Assembly (NCBI GenBank): GCA_022824565.1
Contig: JAJDZQ010000167.1
Coordinates: forward strand, 1-35,115
Length of the DNA stretch: 35,115 nucleotides
DNA from: Anaerolineae bacterium
Lineage (GTDB): Bacteria > Chloroflexota > Anaerolineae > Aggregatilineales > Phototrophicaceae
Reading direction: 5' to 3'
A program made the position numbers and the translations under genes. The notes under the pieces are model-generated. The model was not told the origin of the DNA and ran no database searches. It saw nothing but the letters and a program-made list of their open reading frames with translations. Positions 13,801 through 35,115 of the stretch are shown here, one piece after another. Every line of letters begins with the position of its first letter. The first letter of the stretch is position 1.

Positions 13801-14384
13801 GTGGCAGCGGCGACATCTTGAGCATGCGCCAGACAGGGCATGTCGCCAGCGTCGGCTTGCACCTCTACACAGAAATGCTCCAGCAAGCCGTGCAAGAGCA
13901 ACGCGGCGAAGACACCCGCAATGAACCAGCGCCCGCCTCTGCCCGCGAGCGCATCATCATCGACCTGCCCTTGCCCGCCTATCTGCCGACCGACTGGATA
14001 CCCGAGATGGCGCTGCGCTTGCAACTGTATCGCCGCATCGGCAATATCGCCCAGGTGGCAGAGGTCGATGCCATGCGCGAAGAGCTGACCGACCGCTTTG
14101 GAGCGCTGCCGGCCGCTGTCGAAGGTCTGCTGTATCAGATCCGCGTCAAGGCGTTGGCGCAAGAGCTGCGCGCCACCCATGTGCAACTACGGCGCGGACA
14201 AATTCACATTAAGCTGCCCTATCTGGCGACCTTGAAACGCGATCTGCTGGAGATTATTTTGGGCGAAGAGATCGAAGTTACGCGAACCGAATTGCGTTTG
14301 CCCGCCGACGCTGACTGGCAAGCGCGCCTGCTGCAGCTTCTCGCCGTGCTGAAAGAGCGCGTTCGGCTGGTTGGTGGCGTTTAG
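10890..14384 (+). CDS. mfd: Transcription-repair coupling factor Mfd
   Basis: ATP-driven DNA translocase that removes RNA polymerase stalled at lesions and recruits UvrA. At 1164 residues it is full length. Order: UvrB-like N-terminal region (GTFSRRGGILDIFPL near 176-190), RNA-polymerase-interacting domain (TYVVHVDFGIGRFAGL near 500), then the RecG-like translocase with Walker A GDVGFGKTEVA (from 647), DEEQ (748-751), TATPIPRTLYLSLSG, and motif V/VI region STSIIENGIDMPRVNT with QLYQLRGRVGRS. The TRG region ends in ELRGSGDILSMRQTGHV, followed by the C-terminal regulatory domain. Its stop overlaps that of the convergent YbaK-type gene. Confidence 0.97.
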   Translation: MTFQLAGLLELVRGSPVYRELVTDMGNGSAGAEINVVRAARPCLLATLAGDWAGPIIYLTTTARRAYNVSEQLPIWLAEASRLHRFAEPSAQFYDYAAWDVGVIRNRIGALAALARSSSKTPPIIVASARALMQASIPPDHFRDNTITLRVGQRHRMDELILRWLGMGYEPATIVLEPGTFSRRGGILDIFPLASQQPVRVDFFDDEIDSLRHFDPGDQRSKAKLLSAKIVPARETLPGQTSTVGAQLQTWANTQTDDTADYSNISADIDALAQGSAFACLEHYLPYLYETPACLLDHAPDNCLVLVEEAEQLQQTCADLAADAQLNRADALSSRQIAPGHPAPYLDWDVVRARLARLPHVALGSFVAGDSPALFAPSERFGGQLRLMLTQLRSYSQRDERIVVLTEQVERLGNIWAEQDASTFVASVAQIDTPPAPGSLRFVRGAAAEGWTLPGADGGLRFITDAEIFGWSRPEPRRRRDFKPSRAPDTRYTDWQAGTYVVHVDFGIGRFAGLRHRSIRDTRREYLMVEYQNADTIYVPIHQADRLSRYVGADGKAPKLSQLGKADLWLKAREKARRNAEAEARELLEIYSRRAAAQGHAFSPDSAWQHEMEAAFPFVETEDQLRVIQQVKADMGAHAPMDRLVCGDVGFGKTEVALRAAFKAVQDGVQVAVLVPTTVLAQQHYDNFKARLAAFPVCIEMMSRFRTKAQQRDIAKRLANSEVDIIIGTHRLLSGDIRFKNLGLMIIDEEQRFGVKHKEHFKKLRARIDILTLTATPIPRTLYLSLSGIRDISMIQTPPEERLPVITQVGAWDDKLSRMAIRRELDRGGQVFVVHNRIRSIYGIRDKLERLVPEASVAVAHGQMPARTLEAVMSEFAHGEYDILLSTSIIENGIDMPRVNTLIVDRADTFGVSQLYQLRGRVGRSAQQAYAYFFHSPGSLTEEARARLETLAENTQLGAGFQIAVRDLELRGSGDILSMRQTGHVASVGLHLYTEMLQQAVQEQRGEDTRNEPAPASARERIIIDLPLPAYLPTDWIPEMALRLQLYRRIGNIAQVAEVDAMREELTDRFGALPAAVEGLLYQIRVKALAQELRATHVQLRRGQIHIKLPYLATLKRDLLEIILGEEIEVTRTELRLPADADWQARLLQLLAVLKERVRLVGGV

Positions 14385-14881
14385 GCTTCGCGCGTCAGAT
14401 CGGCATAGGCAGCGCCAGTGATCTCGCGCAGTTTTTCTGTGCGAATCGGAAAGATGGCATGGGCGGCACCACCGGCCGCGTAAATTGTCTCAAAGCGCGT
14501 CAGGCTGGCATCCATGAGAATCGGCAAGTCGCTGCTGCGATGCGCGAGGGGCGGGATGCCTCCGGGCGCGTAGCCCAGCCAAGCCAGGCATTGCGCCGTG
14601 TTCATCATGCGCACTTTTTTGCGCCCCAAGCCATAGCGCCTCGCCAGTTTGCGATCGTCTATGTGCTGGTCGCCGCTCGCCAAAACCAGCAGTGGCTGCG
14701 ACTTGTTGAGCATAAAGCCCAGGCTTTTTACGATCTGCCCCAATTGGCAGCCGGCCTGGTCTGCCGCTTGCTGCGAGGTCGCGGTGGACGACTCGAACTG
14801 CATGATGGTGATGCCCAAGCCCAGGTTGTCCAGGGCAGCCTGCACATCGGCCACGCCCATCGCTTGCCCCGTCTCTTGCAT
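14381..14881 (-). CDS. YbaK/EbsC-family aminoacyl-tRNA deacylase-like protein
   Basis: The family hydrolyses mischarged aminoacyl-tRNAs (Cys-tRNA-Pro, Ala-tRNA-Pro and similar) in trans. The 166-residue product has the family core: QLGQIVKSLGFML with the functional Lys, LVLASGDQHIDDRKLARRYG, and a distal GYAPGGIPPLAH followed by LPILMDASL. The frame is open to 14944, but the ATG at 14881 has AAAGGGG eight bases upstream, so I start there. It is convergent with mfd, sharing four bases at the stop codons, and divergent from the PhyH gene. Exact tRNA substrate cannot be inferred. Confidence 0.88.
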   Translation of the reverse strand: MQETGQAMGVADVQAALDNLGLGITIMQFESSTATSQQAADQAGCQLGQIVKSLGFMLNKSQPLLVLASGDQHIDDRKLARRYGLGRKKVRMMNTAQCLAWLGYAPGGIPPLAHRSSDLPILMDASLTRFETIYAAGGAAHAIFPIRTEKLREITGAAYADLTREA

Positions 14882-17259: not shown

Positions 17260-18798
17260 TCAAGTGATGCTGACCATGCTGACGAGGTTGCTGGCCAGGG
17301 GATAAAAGATGCCGAAGATCAGAGTGCCCGCGAGAGCGATATTGATCGCCCAGCGCACATAGATTGTTTCCAGCGCCGGCACCAGCTCGCCACTGCTTTC
17401 GCGCAGATACATGTTGACGACCACGCGCATGTAATAAAAGGCGCTGACCACGCTGGTCAATACGCCGATGACTGCCAGGCCGACCAAGCCAGCCTGCACC
17501 GCCGCAGCAAAGACCATGAACTTGCCTACGAAGCCGGCTGTCAATGGGATGCCCGTCAAACTCAGCATGAAAATGGTCATCGCCATCGCCAGCAGAGGGC
17601 GTGAGCGCGCCAAGCCCGTGATGTCGTCTATGTTGCCGCCGCCGCCATCCACACGTTCAATGGTCATGACGACTGCGAATGCGCCCAGGTTGGTAAACAT
17701 ATAGGCGAGGATATAAACCAGCGCGCCTTGTGTCGCCGAATCGGCCGTGCCAGCCGTGCCAGCCGCCGCCAAGGCCACCATGATATAGCCCGCATGGGCG
17801 ATTGACGAATAAGCCAGCATGCGCTTGAGGTTGCGCTGCGAGATCGCCACAAAGTTGCCCAGCACCAGGGTCAGCGCAGCGATTATCGAGATAGTCGTTT
17901 GCCAGGCAGCTGCCCCGCCATCCACCAGCACCAGCACCGAAAGCGCCGTAACCAAAATGCGCAGCAGCGCCGCAAAGCCGCCGATCTTGGCTGTTACGCT
18001 CATCAAGGCTGTCACCGGAGTGGGAGCGCCTTCATAGACATCGGGCGTCCACATATGAAATGGCACAACCGCCACCTTGAAGCCCAAGCCAACTATCAGC
18101 AGCGCCGCGCCAACCACCAGATAGAAGGTCGCCGAAGATGCGGCGTCGACGACCGCAGGCGCAATCTCCAGAATCTGCGGGATGTTGGTCGTGCCGGTTG
18201 CGCCATAGACCAGCGCCGCGCCAAACACCAGGAAAGCGCTGGAAAACGCGCCCAGGATGAAGTACTTCATGCCGCTTTCTTCCGACTTCAACGCCAGCTC
18301 GCTGCCATCATTTTTGATCGAGCGGAAGGCCGCCAGAATGTATAGCGGGATGCTCAGCAATTCCAGCGCCACGAAGACGACAATCAAATCATTGGCGGCC
18401 ACCATGAACATCGCGCCGGCCGATGACAGCAGGGTCAAAATGTAATACTCGCCACGGTGGATGCCGGCTCGCTTGAGGTAATCGCGACTCATCAGCACGG
18501 CCAGCAACGTGGCGACCAGGATGACGATATTCAGGAAGCCCGTGAAGGCATCGGCGATGAACATGCCATAGAGCGCGGTCTGTTGGCCGGCAGCTGACGC
18601 ATAGACAAAGAGGTTGGCGACAAAACTGACGCCCAAGCCCAGGCAAGCCATCAGCGGCGTCCAGTGTTCGCGCTCGTCGCCAGCGAAGAGATCAACCAGC
18701 ACCAGCAGCAAGGTCCAAGCCACCAGCAACGTGCCGGGCAGCGTCGAAGCCAGGTTGGACTGGGTTACAAACTCCGCGATAGTGGGCGATTCAAACAT
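17260..18798 (-). CDS. nuoN: NADH-quinone oxidoreductase subunit N
   Basis: One of three antiporter-like proton-pumping subunits in the complex I membrane arm. The 512-residue protein has 14 predicted helices, the TM5 Glu146 in VALELLSIPLY, the TM7 Lys241 in LGFKVAVVPFHMWTPDVYEGAP, and NLKRMLAYSSIAHAGY with GIPLTAGFVGKF. AGGAG is six bases before the ATG; only eight bases separate it from nuoM. It is the last nuo gene. Length is slightly above the enterobacterial form, with no conspicuous insertions. Confidence 0.96.
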   Translation of the reverse strand: MFESPTIAEFVTQSNLASTLPGTLLVAWTLLLVLVDLFAGDEREHWTPLMACLGLGVSFVANLFVYASAAGQQTALYGMFIADAFTGFLNIVILVATLLAVLMSRDYLKRAGIHRGEYYILTLLSSAGAMFMVAANDLIVVFVALELLSIPLYILAAFRSIKNDGSELALKSEESGMKYFILGAFSSAFLVFGAALVYGATGTTNIPQILEIAPAVVDAASSATFYLVVGAALLIVGLGFKVAVVPFHMWTPDVYEGAPTPVTALMSVTAKIGGFAALLRILVTALSVLVLVDGGAAAWQTTISIIAALTLVLGNFVAISQRNLKRMLAYSSIAHAGYIMVALAAAGTAGTADSATQGALVYILAYMFTNLGAFAVVMTIERVDGGGGNIDDITGLARSRPLLAMAMTIFMLSLTGIPLTAGFVGKFMVFAAAVQAGLVGLAVIGVLTSVVSAFYYMRVVVNMYLRESSGELVPALETIYVRWAINIALAGTLIFGIFYPLASNLVSMVSIT

Positions 18799-18806
18799 AC
18801 AATCTC

Positions 18807-20411
18807 CTAGCGAACGAAGAGCGCCGCGATGCTATCGACCGAGATATCCAGCATGTTGAAAAAGACGATAGGCTGGATGCCCATCCAGAAGATCATGATG
18901 AGAATTGGGATGAAAGCCGCGATTTCGTTCCAGCGCAGTTTGTAACCAGCTTCATCCTTCAGCGGCTTCTTCAACTCGCCCATGAACACATGCTGGAACA
19001 TCTTCAGCAGGTAGACCGCCGCCAGGATGACGCCCAGGGTGCCAAATAGCGTGAAGGCAAAGCCCAGAAAATCGCTACCCAGCGAGCCCAGCAAGATGGT
19101 GAATTCGCCGATGAAGCCGTTCAAGCCCGGCAAGCCCATGCTGCTCAATGAAATGACGAGGCTGATGCCGCCAAAGACAGGCATGACTTTCCAGATGCCG
19201 CCATAGTCGGCCATTTCTTTGGTGTGCCACCGTTCGTACAGCATGCCCACGATGAGGAACAAGCCCCCCGTGCTGATGCCGTGATTGACCATTTGCAAGG
19301 TCGCGCCTTGCAAACCCTGCGCATTCAAGGCGAAGATGCCCAGCACGACAAAGCCCAGGTGGCTGACCGACGAATAGGCGACCAGCTTCTTGACATTGTT
19401 CTGCGCATAGCTGACCCACGCGCCATAGATGATGCCAACCACGCCCAAAAAGGCAATGGTCGGTGCCCAGGCCACGGTCGCTTCTGGAAACAGGTTGAGG
19501 TTGAAGCGCACGATTCCATAGGTGCCCATCTTCAACAACACGCCAGCCAATATGACCGAGCCGGCTGTCGGCGCTTGCACATGCGCATCGGGCAGCCAGC
19601 TGTGGAAAGGAAAGATGGGGACCTTGATGGCAAAGGCAACCAGGAAGCCCAGGAAAAGGAAGCTTTCTACAGAGCTGAAAAGGAAGCCCGGTTCGCCTTC
19701 TGCTTCGGCTTCTGGGGCATCCCAATAGGTGCCAGCGCCTTCATGCGACTGGACCATCTCGATGACGCCGACATCTCCGCCCGCGCTGTAGGTGCTGAAG
19801 GTGCCAGTGGTGTTGCCCACATACAGAATGGCAATCAGCATCAGGATGGAGCCGGCCATCGTGTACAAGAAAAATTTGACAGCGGCATAGATGCGTTCTT
19901 CGCTGCCCCAAATGCCGATCAAGAAGTACATGGGCACCAGCGTAACTTCCCAAAAGACATAGAAGATGATCAAATCGTGCACGACAAAAACGCCGATCAT
20001 CGCCCATTCCAACAGCATCAGGAAGATGTAATACAGCTTCTCGCGGCCTCGTTCTGCAAAGATATGGCTGCCGAACGAGCCGAGTATGGCGATGGGCATA
20101 ATGAAGGTCGTCAGCAGGACCAGCAGCATGCTGATGCCATCGACACCGACAAAATAACTGATATTGATGGCAGAATCGCCAAGCGACACCTCTGCCCAGG
20201 TATTGCGCTGCACCATTTGCAACTCGGCTGTGGCTGGGTCGAAGTTGATCCACATCAGCACCGATGCCACAAAGGTCACCAGGCTGGTCGCAAAAGCCAC
20301 CCACTTGAGGTTTTCCCGCTGCGTTTCGCCATTCATGAACAGCAAAATGGCAAGCCCCAGCATCGGCAAGAAGAGGGTGATAGTCGTCAGCGAGAGTCCA
20401 GTTACATCCAT
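18807..20411 (-). CDS. nuoM: NADH-quinone oxidoreductase subunit M
   Basis: Antiporter-like proton-pumping subunit of 534 residues. Glu155 in FYVFWEVTLVPMY, Lys263 in FAIKVPIFPFHSWLPDAH and Lys294 in GVLLKMGTYG are the expected channel residues. Between helices 6 and 7 (about 205-245) it carries an acidic insertion rich in Glu/Gly (DAPEAEAEGEPG), making it about 25 residues longer than the E. coli protein; helix parity places it on the outer face. It sits between nuoL (14-nt gap) and nuoN. Confidence 0.96.
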   Translation of the reverse strand: MDVTGLSLTTITLFLPMLGLAILLFMNGETQRENLKWVAFATSLVTFVASVLMWINFDPATAELQMVQRNTWAEVSLGDSAINISYFVGVDGISMLLVLLTTFIMPIAILGSFGSHIFAERGREKLYYIFLMLLEWAMIGVFVVHDLIIFYVFWEVTLVPMYFLIGIWGSEERIYAAVKFFLYTMAGSILMLIAILYVGNTTGTFSTYSAGGDVGVIEMVQSHEGAGTYWDAPEAEAEGEPGFLFSSVESFLFLGFLVAFAIKVPIFPFHSWLPDAHVQAPTAGSVILAGVLLKMGTYGIVRFNLNLFPEATVAWAPTIAFLGVVGIIYGAWVSYAQNNVKKLVAYSSVSHLGFVVLGIFALNAQGLQGATLQMVNHGISTGGLFLIVGMLYERWHTKEMADYGGIWKVMPVFGGISLVISLSSMGLPGLNGFIGEFTILLGSLGSDFLGFAFTLFGTLGVILAAVYLLKMFQHVFMGELKKPLKDEAGYKLRWNEIAAFIPILIMIFWMGIQPIVFFNMLDISVDSIAALFVR

Positions 20412-33494: not shown

Positions 33495-33977
33495 CTATGC
33501 CCAGTCGGCGATGCGCTCGCCTTTGACTTTTTCGTGTAGGGTCAAGATGCCATGCAGCAATTGTTCGGGGCGTGGCGGGCAGCCAGCGATGTACACATCA
33601 ACCGGGATGATCTCGTCAACGCCCTGCACAATGGCATAGTTGTTATAAACGCCGCCGCAAGAAGCGCAGTCGCCCATGGAGATGACCCATTTTGGTTCTG
33701 CCATCTGGTCATAGAGCTGGCGAATGACCGGCGCCATCTTGCGCGTCAGCCGCCCGGATACGATCAACAAATCGGCCTGGCGGGGCGTGGCGCGGTTCAA
33801 TTCCATGCCAAAACGCGACAAATCGTAGCTGGAGGCTTGCGAACTCATGTATTCGATGGCGCAACAAGCCAAGCCAAACAGCAGGGGCCACATCGCCCCG
33901 GTGCGCGCCCAATTGACAGCTTGCTCGACGGTCGTCGTGACGACGCCCAGGTTGCCAAGCTTCTCGCTTACTCCCAT
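33495..33977 (-). CDS. nuoB: NADH-quinone oxidoreductase subunit B
   Basis: Binds cluster N2, which reduces quinone. N2 ligands are Cys38, Cys39 (GLACCAIEY), Cys104 (GDCASCGG) and Cys133 (AGCPPRPEQ). Cys107 is extra: most homologues have Ser or Asn there. I start at 33977, where AAGGCGG lies six bases upstream; an ATG at 33998 has no ribosome-binding site. This start lies inside nuoA, whose TAA falls ten bases on (ATGGGAGTAA). Length 160 is normal. Confidence 0.97.
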
Positions 33978-34327
33978 TCCAAGCCGCCTTTCTTCCATTC
34001 ATATACGAAGCCGACGATCAATATCAGCGTGAAGACCGCCATGACAGCCAGCCCGTAGACGCCCAGGTCGCGCATGGATACCGCCCAGGGCAAAAAGAAG
34101 ATCACTTCTATATCAAAGATGATGAACAAGACCGCGACCAAATAGAACTTGATGGGCAGGCGGCGCGTCGCCGGACCGATGGGCTTCATGCCGCTTTCGT
34201 AGGGCACAGACTTGCGATAGCTCGGGCGTTGCGGACCCATCACGCGCGAGATGTTGGCGATAATCAAAGCCAAGCCGATCGCTATGACCAGCAAGGCGCT
34301 AACAGGTCCGAACTCAAGGATGGTCAT
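33968..34327 (-). CDS. nuoA: NADH-quinone oxidoreductase subunit A
   Basis: Small three-helix subunit near the quinone-chamber junction. The 119-residue protein starts [18 protein letters not shown] and has the family segment [24 protein letters not shown] and [17 protein letters not shown] (acidic pair in helix 2). The frame extends to 34405, but those 26 residues are not family-like. First gene of the nuo operon; overlaps nuoB by ten bases. Confidence 0.96.
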
Positions 34328-34371
34328 TGCCAAATGCCACGCGCTTGTGCTTTTTGGAACAAGTTGCGCAA

Positions 34372-34400
34372 AGCCTAGCACAGCATGCCCGTCAGTGCAA
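34372..34400 (-). promoter_or_regulatory. Candidate promoter of the nuo operon
   Basis: On the minus strand TTGCAC (34400-34395), 17-nt spacer, TAGGCT (34377-34372), preceded by TGC. The leader to nuoA would be about 38 nt. Both hexamers are imperfect; the extended -10 strengthens the call. Confidence 0.5.
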
Positions 34401-34547
34401 GACAAGTCTGGAGGTGATTCTCGGGGCGAGTCTGTTTCGCCACGAGCGCATCATGCCGCGCGCATAGACGCTCATCTGGTGATCTAGCTCTGTATACACT
34501 CTACTAAACTTGATAACACGGCTATAGCATGTCTACACAATTCGTTA

Positions 34548-34576
34548 TTGACAATTATAAGCAGACCGTGTAAGCT
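34548..34576 (+). promoter_or_regulatory. Promoter of the HARE-HTH gene, with inverted repeat
   Basis: TTGACA (34548-34553), 17-nt spacer, TAAGCT (34571-34576). GCTGTA (34574-34579) and TACAGC (34594-34599) form an inverted repeat spanning the likely start of transcription, between the -10 and the ribosome-binding site. It could be an operator or a leader hairpin. Confidence 0.55.
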
Positions 34577-34610
34577 GTAAATTAGTCCGGTTATACAGCG
34601 GAGACACATC

Positions 34611-35115
34611 ATGCAGACAACCGACGACAATCGTGACAAGAACGGCTCGTTTGAACATACTTTGCGCAGCGAGCGAGACAAGTTGCAGCGTGAAATTGAG
34701 TCGCTTCGCAACGAAATCGCGGAACGAGAAATTGCCTACCGCGCCAAAGAGAAGCGACTTGGGCACATAGTCGCGCTGCTGGATACCGAGCCACAGAGCC
34801 CAGGCAAGCAAAGCTGCAGTGTTAGTGCGCCGGCGGGTCGCTCCACTCCAACCGCGCAACTGCTGGACATGGCAGAACAAGTATTACGCGAACGAAAGCG
34901 CGAGCCAATGCACTACCGCGACCTGGCAGACGAGCTGATCCTGCGGGGGGCAGTTATCCGTGGCAAAGACCCAGCAAACTCGCTGGTATCACGCATGACA
35001 ACGGATGACAAACGGCGGGCAGAAGGCGAAAAGCGTTTCATCCGTCCGACTAGCAAAGGCTTCTACGCGCTGCGAGAGTTCTATCCCAACGCGCGGAATG
35101 TGGGGGCAAAGCGGC
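34611..35115 (+). CDS. Coiled-coil protein with HARE-HTH winged-helix domain, partial
   Basis: The frame is open to the window end (168 codons), so the 3' end is missing. GGAG lies seven bases before the ATG. Residues about 15-60 are a charged coiled coil (RSERDKLQREIESLRNEIAE). After a polar linker, residues about 86-160 match the HARE-HTH fold known from RpoE/delta, ASXL and restriction-system proteins: QLLDMAEQVLRE, EPMHYRDLADELILRGAVI, GKDPANSLVSRM, and the wing KRFIRPTSKGFYALREF. Such domains are thought to bind DNA, often next to restriction or other nuclease domains, which may follow off-window. Base composition is less GC-rich than the nuo genes, hinting at an accessory gene. Confidence 0.85.
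   Translation, partial: MQTTDDNRDKNGSFEHTLRSERDKLQREIESLRNEIAEREIAYRAKEKRLGHIVALLDTEPQSPGKQSCSVSAPAGRSTPTAQLLDMAEQVLRERKREPMHYRDLADELILRGAVIRGKDPANSLVSRMTTDDKRRAEGEKRFIRPTSKGFYALREFYPNARNVGAKR

Follow-up and report, generated by a model that had tools for sequence, protein, structure and literature searches.

The window analysed here, a stretch of 35,115 bases, is the entire contig C44 of a genome of 3.46 Mb that is assembled in 186 contigs. At its right edge (34611–35115, plus strand) lies gene 1, an ATG-started open frame of 168 codons (34611–35114) that is cut by the contig end. The first-pass annotation had read the product as a coiled coil followed by a HARE-HTH domain and had proposed a profile search as a check. 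The search confirmed the domain call at 42–43 bits: Pfam PF05066 matches residues 85–146 (42.4 bits, E 9.6e-11, cut-off 25.9), and in a genome-wide search gene 1 gave the sole PF05066 match of this genome (43.3 bits, E 1.4e-10); the domain is placed at 34863–35075 on the plus strand. When 11 HARE proteins (the window's, two genus members and eight distant ones) were run against Pfam, 10 matched PF05066 at E ≤ 0.1, the best at 3.9e-11. The coiled coil is predicted at residues ~15–57 (34653–34781, plus strand), preceding the HARE-HTH domain as annotated; this segment is rich in Glu, Arg and Leu in the family alignments, and the HARE family profile has a weak similarity to bZIP coiled coils (best E 0.035). 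The RNA polymerase delta subunit (RpoE, TIGR04567) was considered for gene 1 and rejected, with a match (16.1 bits, E 0.0095) far under the NCBIfam cut-off of 42. PADLOC gave no match for the gene 1 protein.

Gene 1 is indeed divergent from the nuo genes, which were identified in the window from their translations by eye, without a profile search. Its neighbour nuoA (33968–34330, minus strand) is present in 34 of 34 genomes and adjoins either the cassette described below or the empty site. The divergent spacer (34331–34610, no strand; 48.6% GC) holds promoter-like sites and a 6-base inverted repeat, yet two further features claimed for it proved to be slight. The promoter attributed to gene 1 is weak: the sole plus-strand candidate upstream of the start, TTGACA at 34548–34553 with TAAGCT 17 nt on (3/6), was picked by eye and falls under the threshold of the promoter scan, and the top site of that scan (11/12; minus strand, 34581–34554) points at nuo. 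The inverted repeat amounts to 6-base arms, GCTGTA/TACAGC at 34574–34599, seen by eye; the spacer scan found no pair of at least 8 bases within 60 nt. A GGAG lies at 34600–34603, before gene 1. The composition was also said to differ from that of the neighbours. Gene 1 has a GC content of 57.3% in a window whose overall value is 59.1%; of 138 sliding windows, 25% are equally low or lower, which places the gene within the normal range. We therefore rejected composition as an indication of foreign origin in the window, and a low-GC signal was seen solely in four distant hosts. Neither the divergent orientation relative to nuo nor the composition counts for much.

A three-gene cassette between nuoA and rpoB

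Because the contig ends inside gene 1, its neighbours were read in relatives. Among 33 further genomes of the genus, 11 have the HARE gene, with 58–65% identity to the window's copy; it was not found in 27 genomes of other genera. In all 11 carriers, a gene of ~870 codons (c0) and then a gene of ~255 codons (c2) lie downstream of it on the same strand. In 10 of the 11 the divergent neighbour is nuoA; the remaining carrier, G015, has 177 bases of contig ahead of the HARE gene. On the far side, rpoB faces the cassette in the 10 carriers whose stretch extends there; four carriers (G009, G030, G027 and G014) have c2 and rpoB separated by a GDSL-hydrolase gene. In the window's own genome, c0 and c2 are missing from the assembly, and rpoB is found on contig C117, followed by the GDSL gene. 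Since C44 ends inside the HARE gene and C117 ends inside the GDSL gene, we infer that the two broken ends are consistent with an unassembled stretch that contains c0 and c2, the arrangement seen in G030.

The three genes are closely packed. The c0 stop codon shares bases with the c2 start codon (TAATG, TGATG or TAGTG) in all 14 junctions printed, and the gap between the HARE gene and c0 ranges from −4 to 44 bases at nine loci. The stop-start overlap and the short gaps therefore predict co-expression, with translation of c0 and c2 probably coupled.

Predicted products of c0 and c2

The features of c0 were examined in the relatives' copies, as the window's own c0 would fall in the assembly gap. 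No convincing family for c0 was found in Pfam or NCBIfam, and none of 16 c0 members matched a Pfam HATPase family at E ≤ 0.5. We assign c0 to the GHKL superfamily on the strength of its motifs and its predicted fold; matching a curated profile is not a defining feature of that superfamily. The GHKL N-box (ExxxN) is present in 15 of 16 c0 rows, the sixteenth (L069) beginning after an in-frame stop; the G1 box D-x-[GN]-T and the G2 box G-[ST]-R-G-x-G-K are present in all 16. An AlphaFold2 model built from 16 sequences is of medium confidence (pLDDT 77.8, pTM 0.50). Its residues 1–414 gave MORC3 (5ix2) as the top structural match (Z 21.0, 304 aligned residues, 3.5 Å), followed by SMCHD1 (6mw7; Z 20.5, 330 aligned, 4.0 Å), with further matches to Hsp90 (Z about 18–20), MORC2, TopoVI-B and MutL. 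Past residue 460 the model is mainly β-sheet, and the best Foldseek matches there were the RbmA biofilm protein (E 5.1e-9) and transglutaminase/complement sheets. These matches suggest two or three Ig/fibronectin-like domains, with helices after them; the secondary structure would put the domains at ~460–730. Taken together, these features predict that c0 combines a GHKL ATPase and a transducer domain with Ig-like domains behind them.

The S5 motif GhXhhpXXRhl, which defines MORC proteins (PMC2292703), is found in its exact form in none of the 16 c0 rows, and the same pattern with Gln in place of Arg is found in all 16. Thus, although c0 has GHKL motifs and a predicted MORC-like fold, and although eukaryotic MORC and SMCHD1 are its best structural matches over residues 1–414, this substitution in the S5 motif means that the name MORC-like or paraMORC-like ATPase suits c0 better than MORC proper. 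The high scores of Hsp90, which nearly reach that of MORC3 (Z 18–20), also raise the reading that the cassette encodes a regulatory or chaperone complex, in which the Ig-like arms of an Hsp90-like ATPase hold a client protein for remodelling, with the HARE-HTH protein serving as an ordinary transcription factor or as an RpoE/delta-like partner of RNA polymerase. The adjoining rpoB gene and the slight resemblance between the HARE part and the delta subunit point in that direction. However, the delta match is far under its cut-off, the adjacency to rpoB is confined to this genus, the eight distant loci described below lying elsewhere, and the S5 motif, a sequence reading, keeps the MORC pattern save for one residue, so that we consider such a complex distinctly unlikely.

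The closest known systems are the paraMORC1–5 ATPases (Iyer, Abhiman and Aravind 2008, PMC2292703), which, like c0, are described as an N-terminal GHKL domain that carries ATP motifs and an S5-fold transducer with C-terminal extensions. Their restriction-modification operons resemble the cassette in being patchy, laterally mobile and operon-borne (PMC2292703). The combination of GHKL and S5-fold domains that characterizes paraMORC is present in c0, since model residues 1–414 align with GHKL-transducer modules; no counterpart of the SFII helicase, nuclease or methylase of the paraMORC operons was recognised in the cassette, whose core is three genes, by Pfam, PADLOC and NCBIfam scans of c0 and c2. 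Unlike in paraMORC1–5, the c0 extension consists of Ig-like sheets and helices, and the partners are a HARE-HTH protein and c2; sections 4–6 of PMC2292703 make no mention of a HARE-HTH partner of paraMORC. A second relative is the GHKL type of Shedu, VcSduA, in which, according to the consulted part of PMC12137116, a GHKL ATPase acts in demonstrated anti-phage defence. VcSduA carries its PD-(D/E)xK nuclease domain (DUF4263) on the same polypeptide, whereas c0 has no nuclease match; for DUF4263 in particular, no Pfam match was found among 16 c0 members at E ≤ 0.5. Finally, the PADLOC candidate model PDC-M33A (627 positions; PDC-M33) matches 13 of 16 c0 members (best E 1.7e-5). The likeness is confined to ~40 residues, namely 18–56 in the member printed, which is the N-box stretch, and may reflect the common GHKL fold. 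PDC-M33 is not named in the open literature that we searched.

The model of c2 is confident (pLDDT 87.8) and mainly helical, with an N-terminal hairpin. No family for c2 was found in Pfam, NCBIfam or PADLOC. A known fold was sought and set aside: Foldseek gave no match at E ≤ 0.001 against either the PDB or BFVD, and VIA-align gave none at Z of 5 or more, a result that indicates neither a new fold nor unrelatedness. Residues invariant in 14 members include R31, D38, D42, D46, R76, K104, R110, R186 and H237.

No nuclease, methylase, helicase or toxin was recognised in c0 or c2 in the Pfam, PADLOC and NCBIfam scans. The first-pass annotation had expected nuclease or methylase genes next to gene 1, as part of a defence or nuclease system. 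The nuclease and methylase part of this expectation failed, as neither c0 nor c2 matches such a family and beyond them lie ordinary genes, rpoB and the GDSL hydrolase; the defence part held up as plausible, in the form of a patchy, defence-like cassette with a MORC/Hsp90-like ATPase. Nor is the downstream region solely housekeeping, because in every relative the two genes that follow encode the ATPase and an uncharacterised protein.

Distribution, loss and alleles of the cassette

To find the same genes beyond the genus, 84,980 genomes were scanned with the c0 alignment. Because the scan relies on a pair of short peptide patterns, it can miss more distant relatives. It returned 19 c0 loci, the 11 genus carriers and eight distant ones, all in metagenome-assembled genomes titled Chloroflexi, Chloroflexota, Anaerolineae, Anaerolineaceae or Dehalococcoidia; many of these, to judge by their bin names, may come from marine sponges. 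At the eight distant loci c0 is 33–51% identical and the surroundings differ from the nuoA–rpoB junction. A HARE-like frame lies directly upstream of c0 in all eight and c2 lies directly downstream in seven, the contig of the eighth (L067) ending inside c0. The order HARE, c0, c2 thus holds at 19 of 19 loci, with c2 off the contig in one. Among 400 genomes sampled from the phylum Chloroflexota, one (G368) gave a full-strength c0 match, on contig C169, which is taken as the same contig as L067. Five others gave weak matches (E 4e-8 to 7e-5) over 70–110 residues of the ATPase domain in frames of 715–775 aa, and for c2 the sole match was a 43-residue fragment in G368.

Searches of plasmids with c0, c2 and HARE, of phages with c0 and HARE, and of viral contigs with c0 and c2 under limited patterns gave no match, so we read the mobility of the cassette from its patchiness and its GC content. 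The latter is well under that of the flanks in L062, L064, L065 and L069 (in L064, 0.49 for c0 against 0.67), with the exception of the HARE gene in L069, which is close to its flanks. Defence-type neighbours were recognised at two of the eight distant loci. L064 has a gene for a Vsr-type mismatch endonuclease (14356–14826; E 1e-32 to PDB 1cw0) ~1 kb past the cassette, and L060 has two DNA methyltransferase genes (1173–2525 and 18760–19971) several kb to either side. There is no consistent defence neighbourhood across the eight loci, and the genus cassette stands alone among housekeeping genes. At none of the 19 loci did we find a nuclease or methylase gene in the following position, and this candidate was rejected.

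The vsr gene, together with MutL and TopoVI-B among the fold matches of c0, would fit a dispensable module for DNA repair or chromosome maintenance, in which a MutL/MORC-like ATPase and a DNA-binding partner act on damaged or mismatched host DNA and are often lost; Iyer et al. treat MutL-like repair uses of such ATPases (PMC2292703). The low GC in distant hosts, the full-strength c0 match in 1 of 400 phylum genomes, the scattered presence and the two ATPase alleles with the same partners (see below) suit conflict genes better, and we regard a repair module as unlikely.

Within the genus, 34 genomes were examined: 12 carry the HARE gene (the window's and the 11 others), two carry remnants and 20 have none. 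In 19 of the 20 cassette-free genomes, nuoA and the rpoB end adjoin without a cassette. The empty spacer was measured in 18 of these, with 275–441 bases in 11 and 831–2192 bases in seven; five of the seven long spacers hold the GDSL gene (G018, G024, G003, G005 and G001), that of G010 holds a 559-aa frame (L032, 770–2449), and that of G017 measures 831 bases. The nineteenth empty site, in G026, has ~300 bases between nuoA and rpoB, and in the twentieth genome, G033, rpoB lies outside the 8 kb taken. On a quick rpoB tree that covers 29 of the 34 genomes and does not separate gain from loss, presence and absence need at least 9 changes and are no less scattered than shuffled labels (mean 9.4; 262 of 500 as low), and the starred branches force at least 7. 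The scattered absence by itself fits any dispensable gene.

One loss left a trace. G006, which on the rpoB tree is nearest to the window's genome, tracks the window to ~34463 and then continues with 44–46 bp of the c2 end and just past it, 78–84% identical to G030, G014 and G027 (best E 5e-8), followed by the GDSL start and rpoB. As read from the sequence, this remnant is a deletion scar and as such direct evidence of one loss. Among the 18 empty spacers compared with the 11 carriers, G006 alone holds a clear cassette remnant; a 23-base match in G005 (E 0.005, two carriers) was considered as a scar and taken as chance.

Larger remnants are found in two genomes. G011 retains an intact c2 and a 134-aa c0 tail with a transposase-like frame alongside, and G007 retains an intact c2 and a c0 tail. 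The G011 frames beside the c0 remnant (L033, 5778–6134 and 6206–6526) look IS1-like by eye, without a database match. The G007 remnant (L047, 8225–9938) is joined upstream to unrelated transport-type genes, and its c0 tail is of the type found in G012. In addition, c0 is broken in several copies, by a TAG in G009 and G030, a split frame in G019, a frame break in L065 and a stop in L069, although these could be assembly errors; the HARE gene and c2 remain open where c0 is broken.

This last pattern, together with an HTH gene that leads a tightly coupled operon with an AT-rich divergent spacer, might be taken for a selfish, toxin-antitoxin-like addiction island, in which c2 or c0 would be toxic and the HARE-HTH protein an autoregulating antidote. 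It is a very unlikely one: c0 is much larger than the usual toxins and its ATPase site is conserved, its broken frames could be assembly errors, and c2 persists beside a c0 remnant with no HARE gene in G011 and G007, which speaks against c2 as a toxin that needs a HARE antidote. The remnants, the broken copies and the deletion scar would also be found if the cassette were degenerate or neutral passenger DNA with no present function. Motifs and reading frames are, however, preserved across 33–51% identity in distant hosts, and we hold this explanation to be most improbable.

The c0 of G012 is 28–34% identical to the 15 other c0 rows, whereas the c2 of this genome shares 81% identity with the G002 c2, and its HARE protein 62% with the window's copy. 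The c0 tail of G007 is 59–73% identical to the G012 c0. Thus, judging from these identities, two old and deeply diverged ATPase alleles occur with the same partners. The mean identity is 0.67 for HARE (12 copies), 0.69 for c2 (13 copies) and 0.57 for c0 (8 copies, the G012 allele included), compared with 0.85 for rpoB (10 carriers).

Proposed role and genomic setting

From the anatomy and evolution of the cassette we infer its function: on balance, it is most likely a mobile system that protects the cell against invading DNA, and probably one related to the paraMORC ATPases. Published work on its two recognisable components is in line with this reading. In restriction systems, a proposed task of GHKL-transducer ATPases is to power the rearrangement of proteins and the looping of DNA (PMC2292703), and roles in restriction and phage defence, or links to them, are described for related GHKL ATPases (PMC2292703, PMC12137116); in VcSduA the GHKL ATPase protects as a nuclease fusion, and an ATPase mutant is inactive (PMC12137116). 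HARE-HTH is a proposed reader of modified DNA in Dnd loci and is fused to nucleases in BREX loci (PMC10853773, PMC12839542), and modification of cytosine is thought likelier than that of adenine (PMC11037411). The HARE-HTH–restriction endonuclease fusions of Dnd and BREX, as far as the consulted parts of these papers describe them, share with the cassette a proposed role of HARE-HTH as a reader of modified DNA in conflict systems (PMC10853773, PMC12839542). Unlike in those fusions, the cassette HARE-HTH stands alone after a coiled coil, beside a GHKL ATPase and not a nuclease. No paper in the largely open-access literature searched contains both HARE-HTH and GHKL, and among the papers listed in related searches none was seen to describe an operon that combines the two.

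In the mechanism that we propose, the coiled-coil HARE-HTH protein would be a dimeric DNA reader, perhaps of a base modification, which may also regulate its own operon and would deliver invading DNA to the c0 ATPase. The latter would act as a dimeric GHKL/transducer clamp of the MORC/Hsp90/MutL type with Ig-like arms, shutting on DNA upon ATP binding and presumably hydrolysing ATP. Produced in step with c0, c2 would join it as a partner or effector that converts clamp closure to blocking, compaction or damage. As there is no cutter in the cassette, either c2 may be an effector of unrecognised type or the system may act by entrapment. The second option leads to nuclease-free silencing of the MORC/SMCHD1 type, in which the HARE-HTH protein would load the clamp and closure with c2 would entrap or compact the invader DNA without cutting; we regard this version as possible but doubtful. 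In the same version, the ATPase gene would be exchanged between the two diverged alleles while the partners stay, as if the clamp were targeted by phage counter-defence.

Bacterial MORC-like ATPases are known mainly next to nucleases and helicases, and eukaryotic MORC ATPases silence transposons through DNA compaction. A compact, conserved, nuclease-free operon of a HARE-HTH reader and a MORC-like ATPase would offer a direct test of whether MORC-type ATPases can act on invading DNA by entrapment alone, and it would bear on the origin of the eukaryotic pairing of epigenetic reader and MORC ATPase. It also adds a testable candidate defence system from uncultured Chloroflexota.

The nuoA–rpoB junction itself carries other cargo where the cassette is absent, namely the GDSL hydrolase in L030, L031, L035, L036 and L042 and the 559-aa frame, so the junction may be a general exchange spot. 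A separate observation concerns RpoB, encoded beside the cassette site, which in several species of the genus appears to have an extra ~150–300 residues near residue 550 that it lacks in others. The RpoB frame is 1645 aa long in G000 (L045/L046) and, counted from an internal start, 1474 aa long in G010 (L032, 2625–7049); the comparison was with the RpoB of G015 (L016, 4187–8176).
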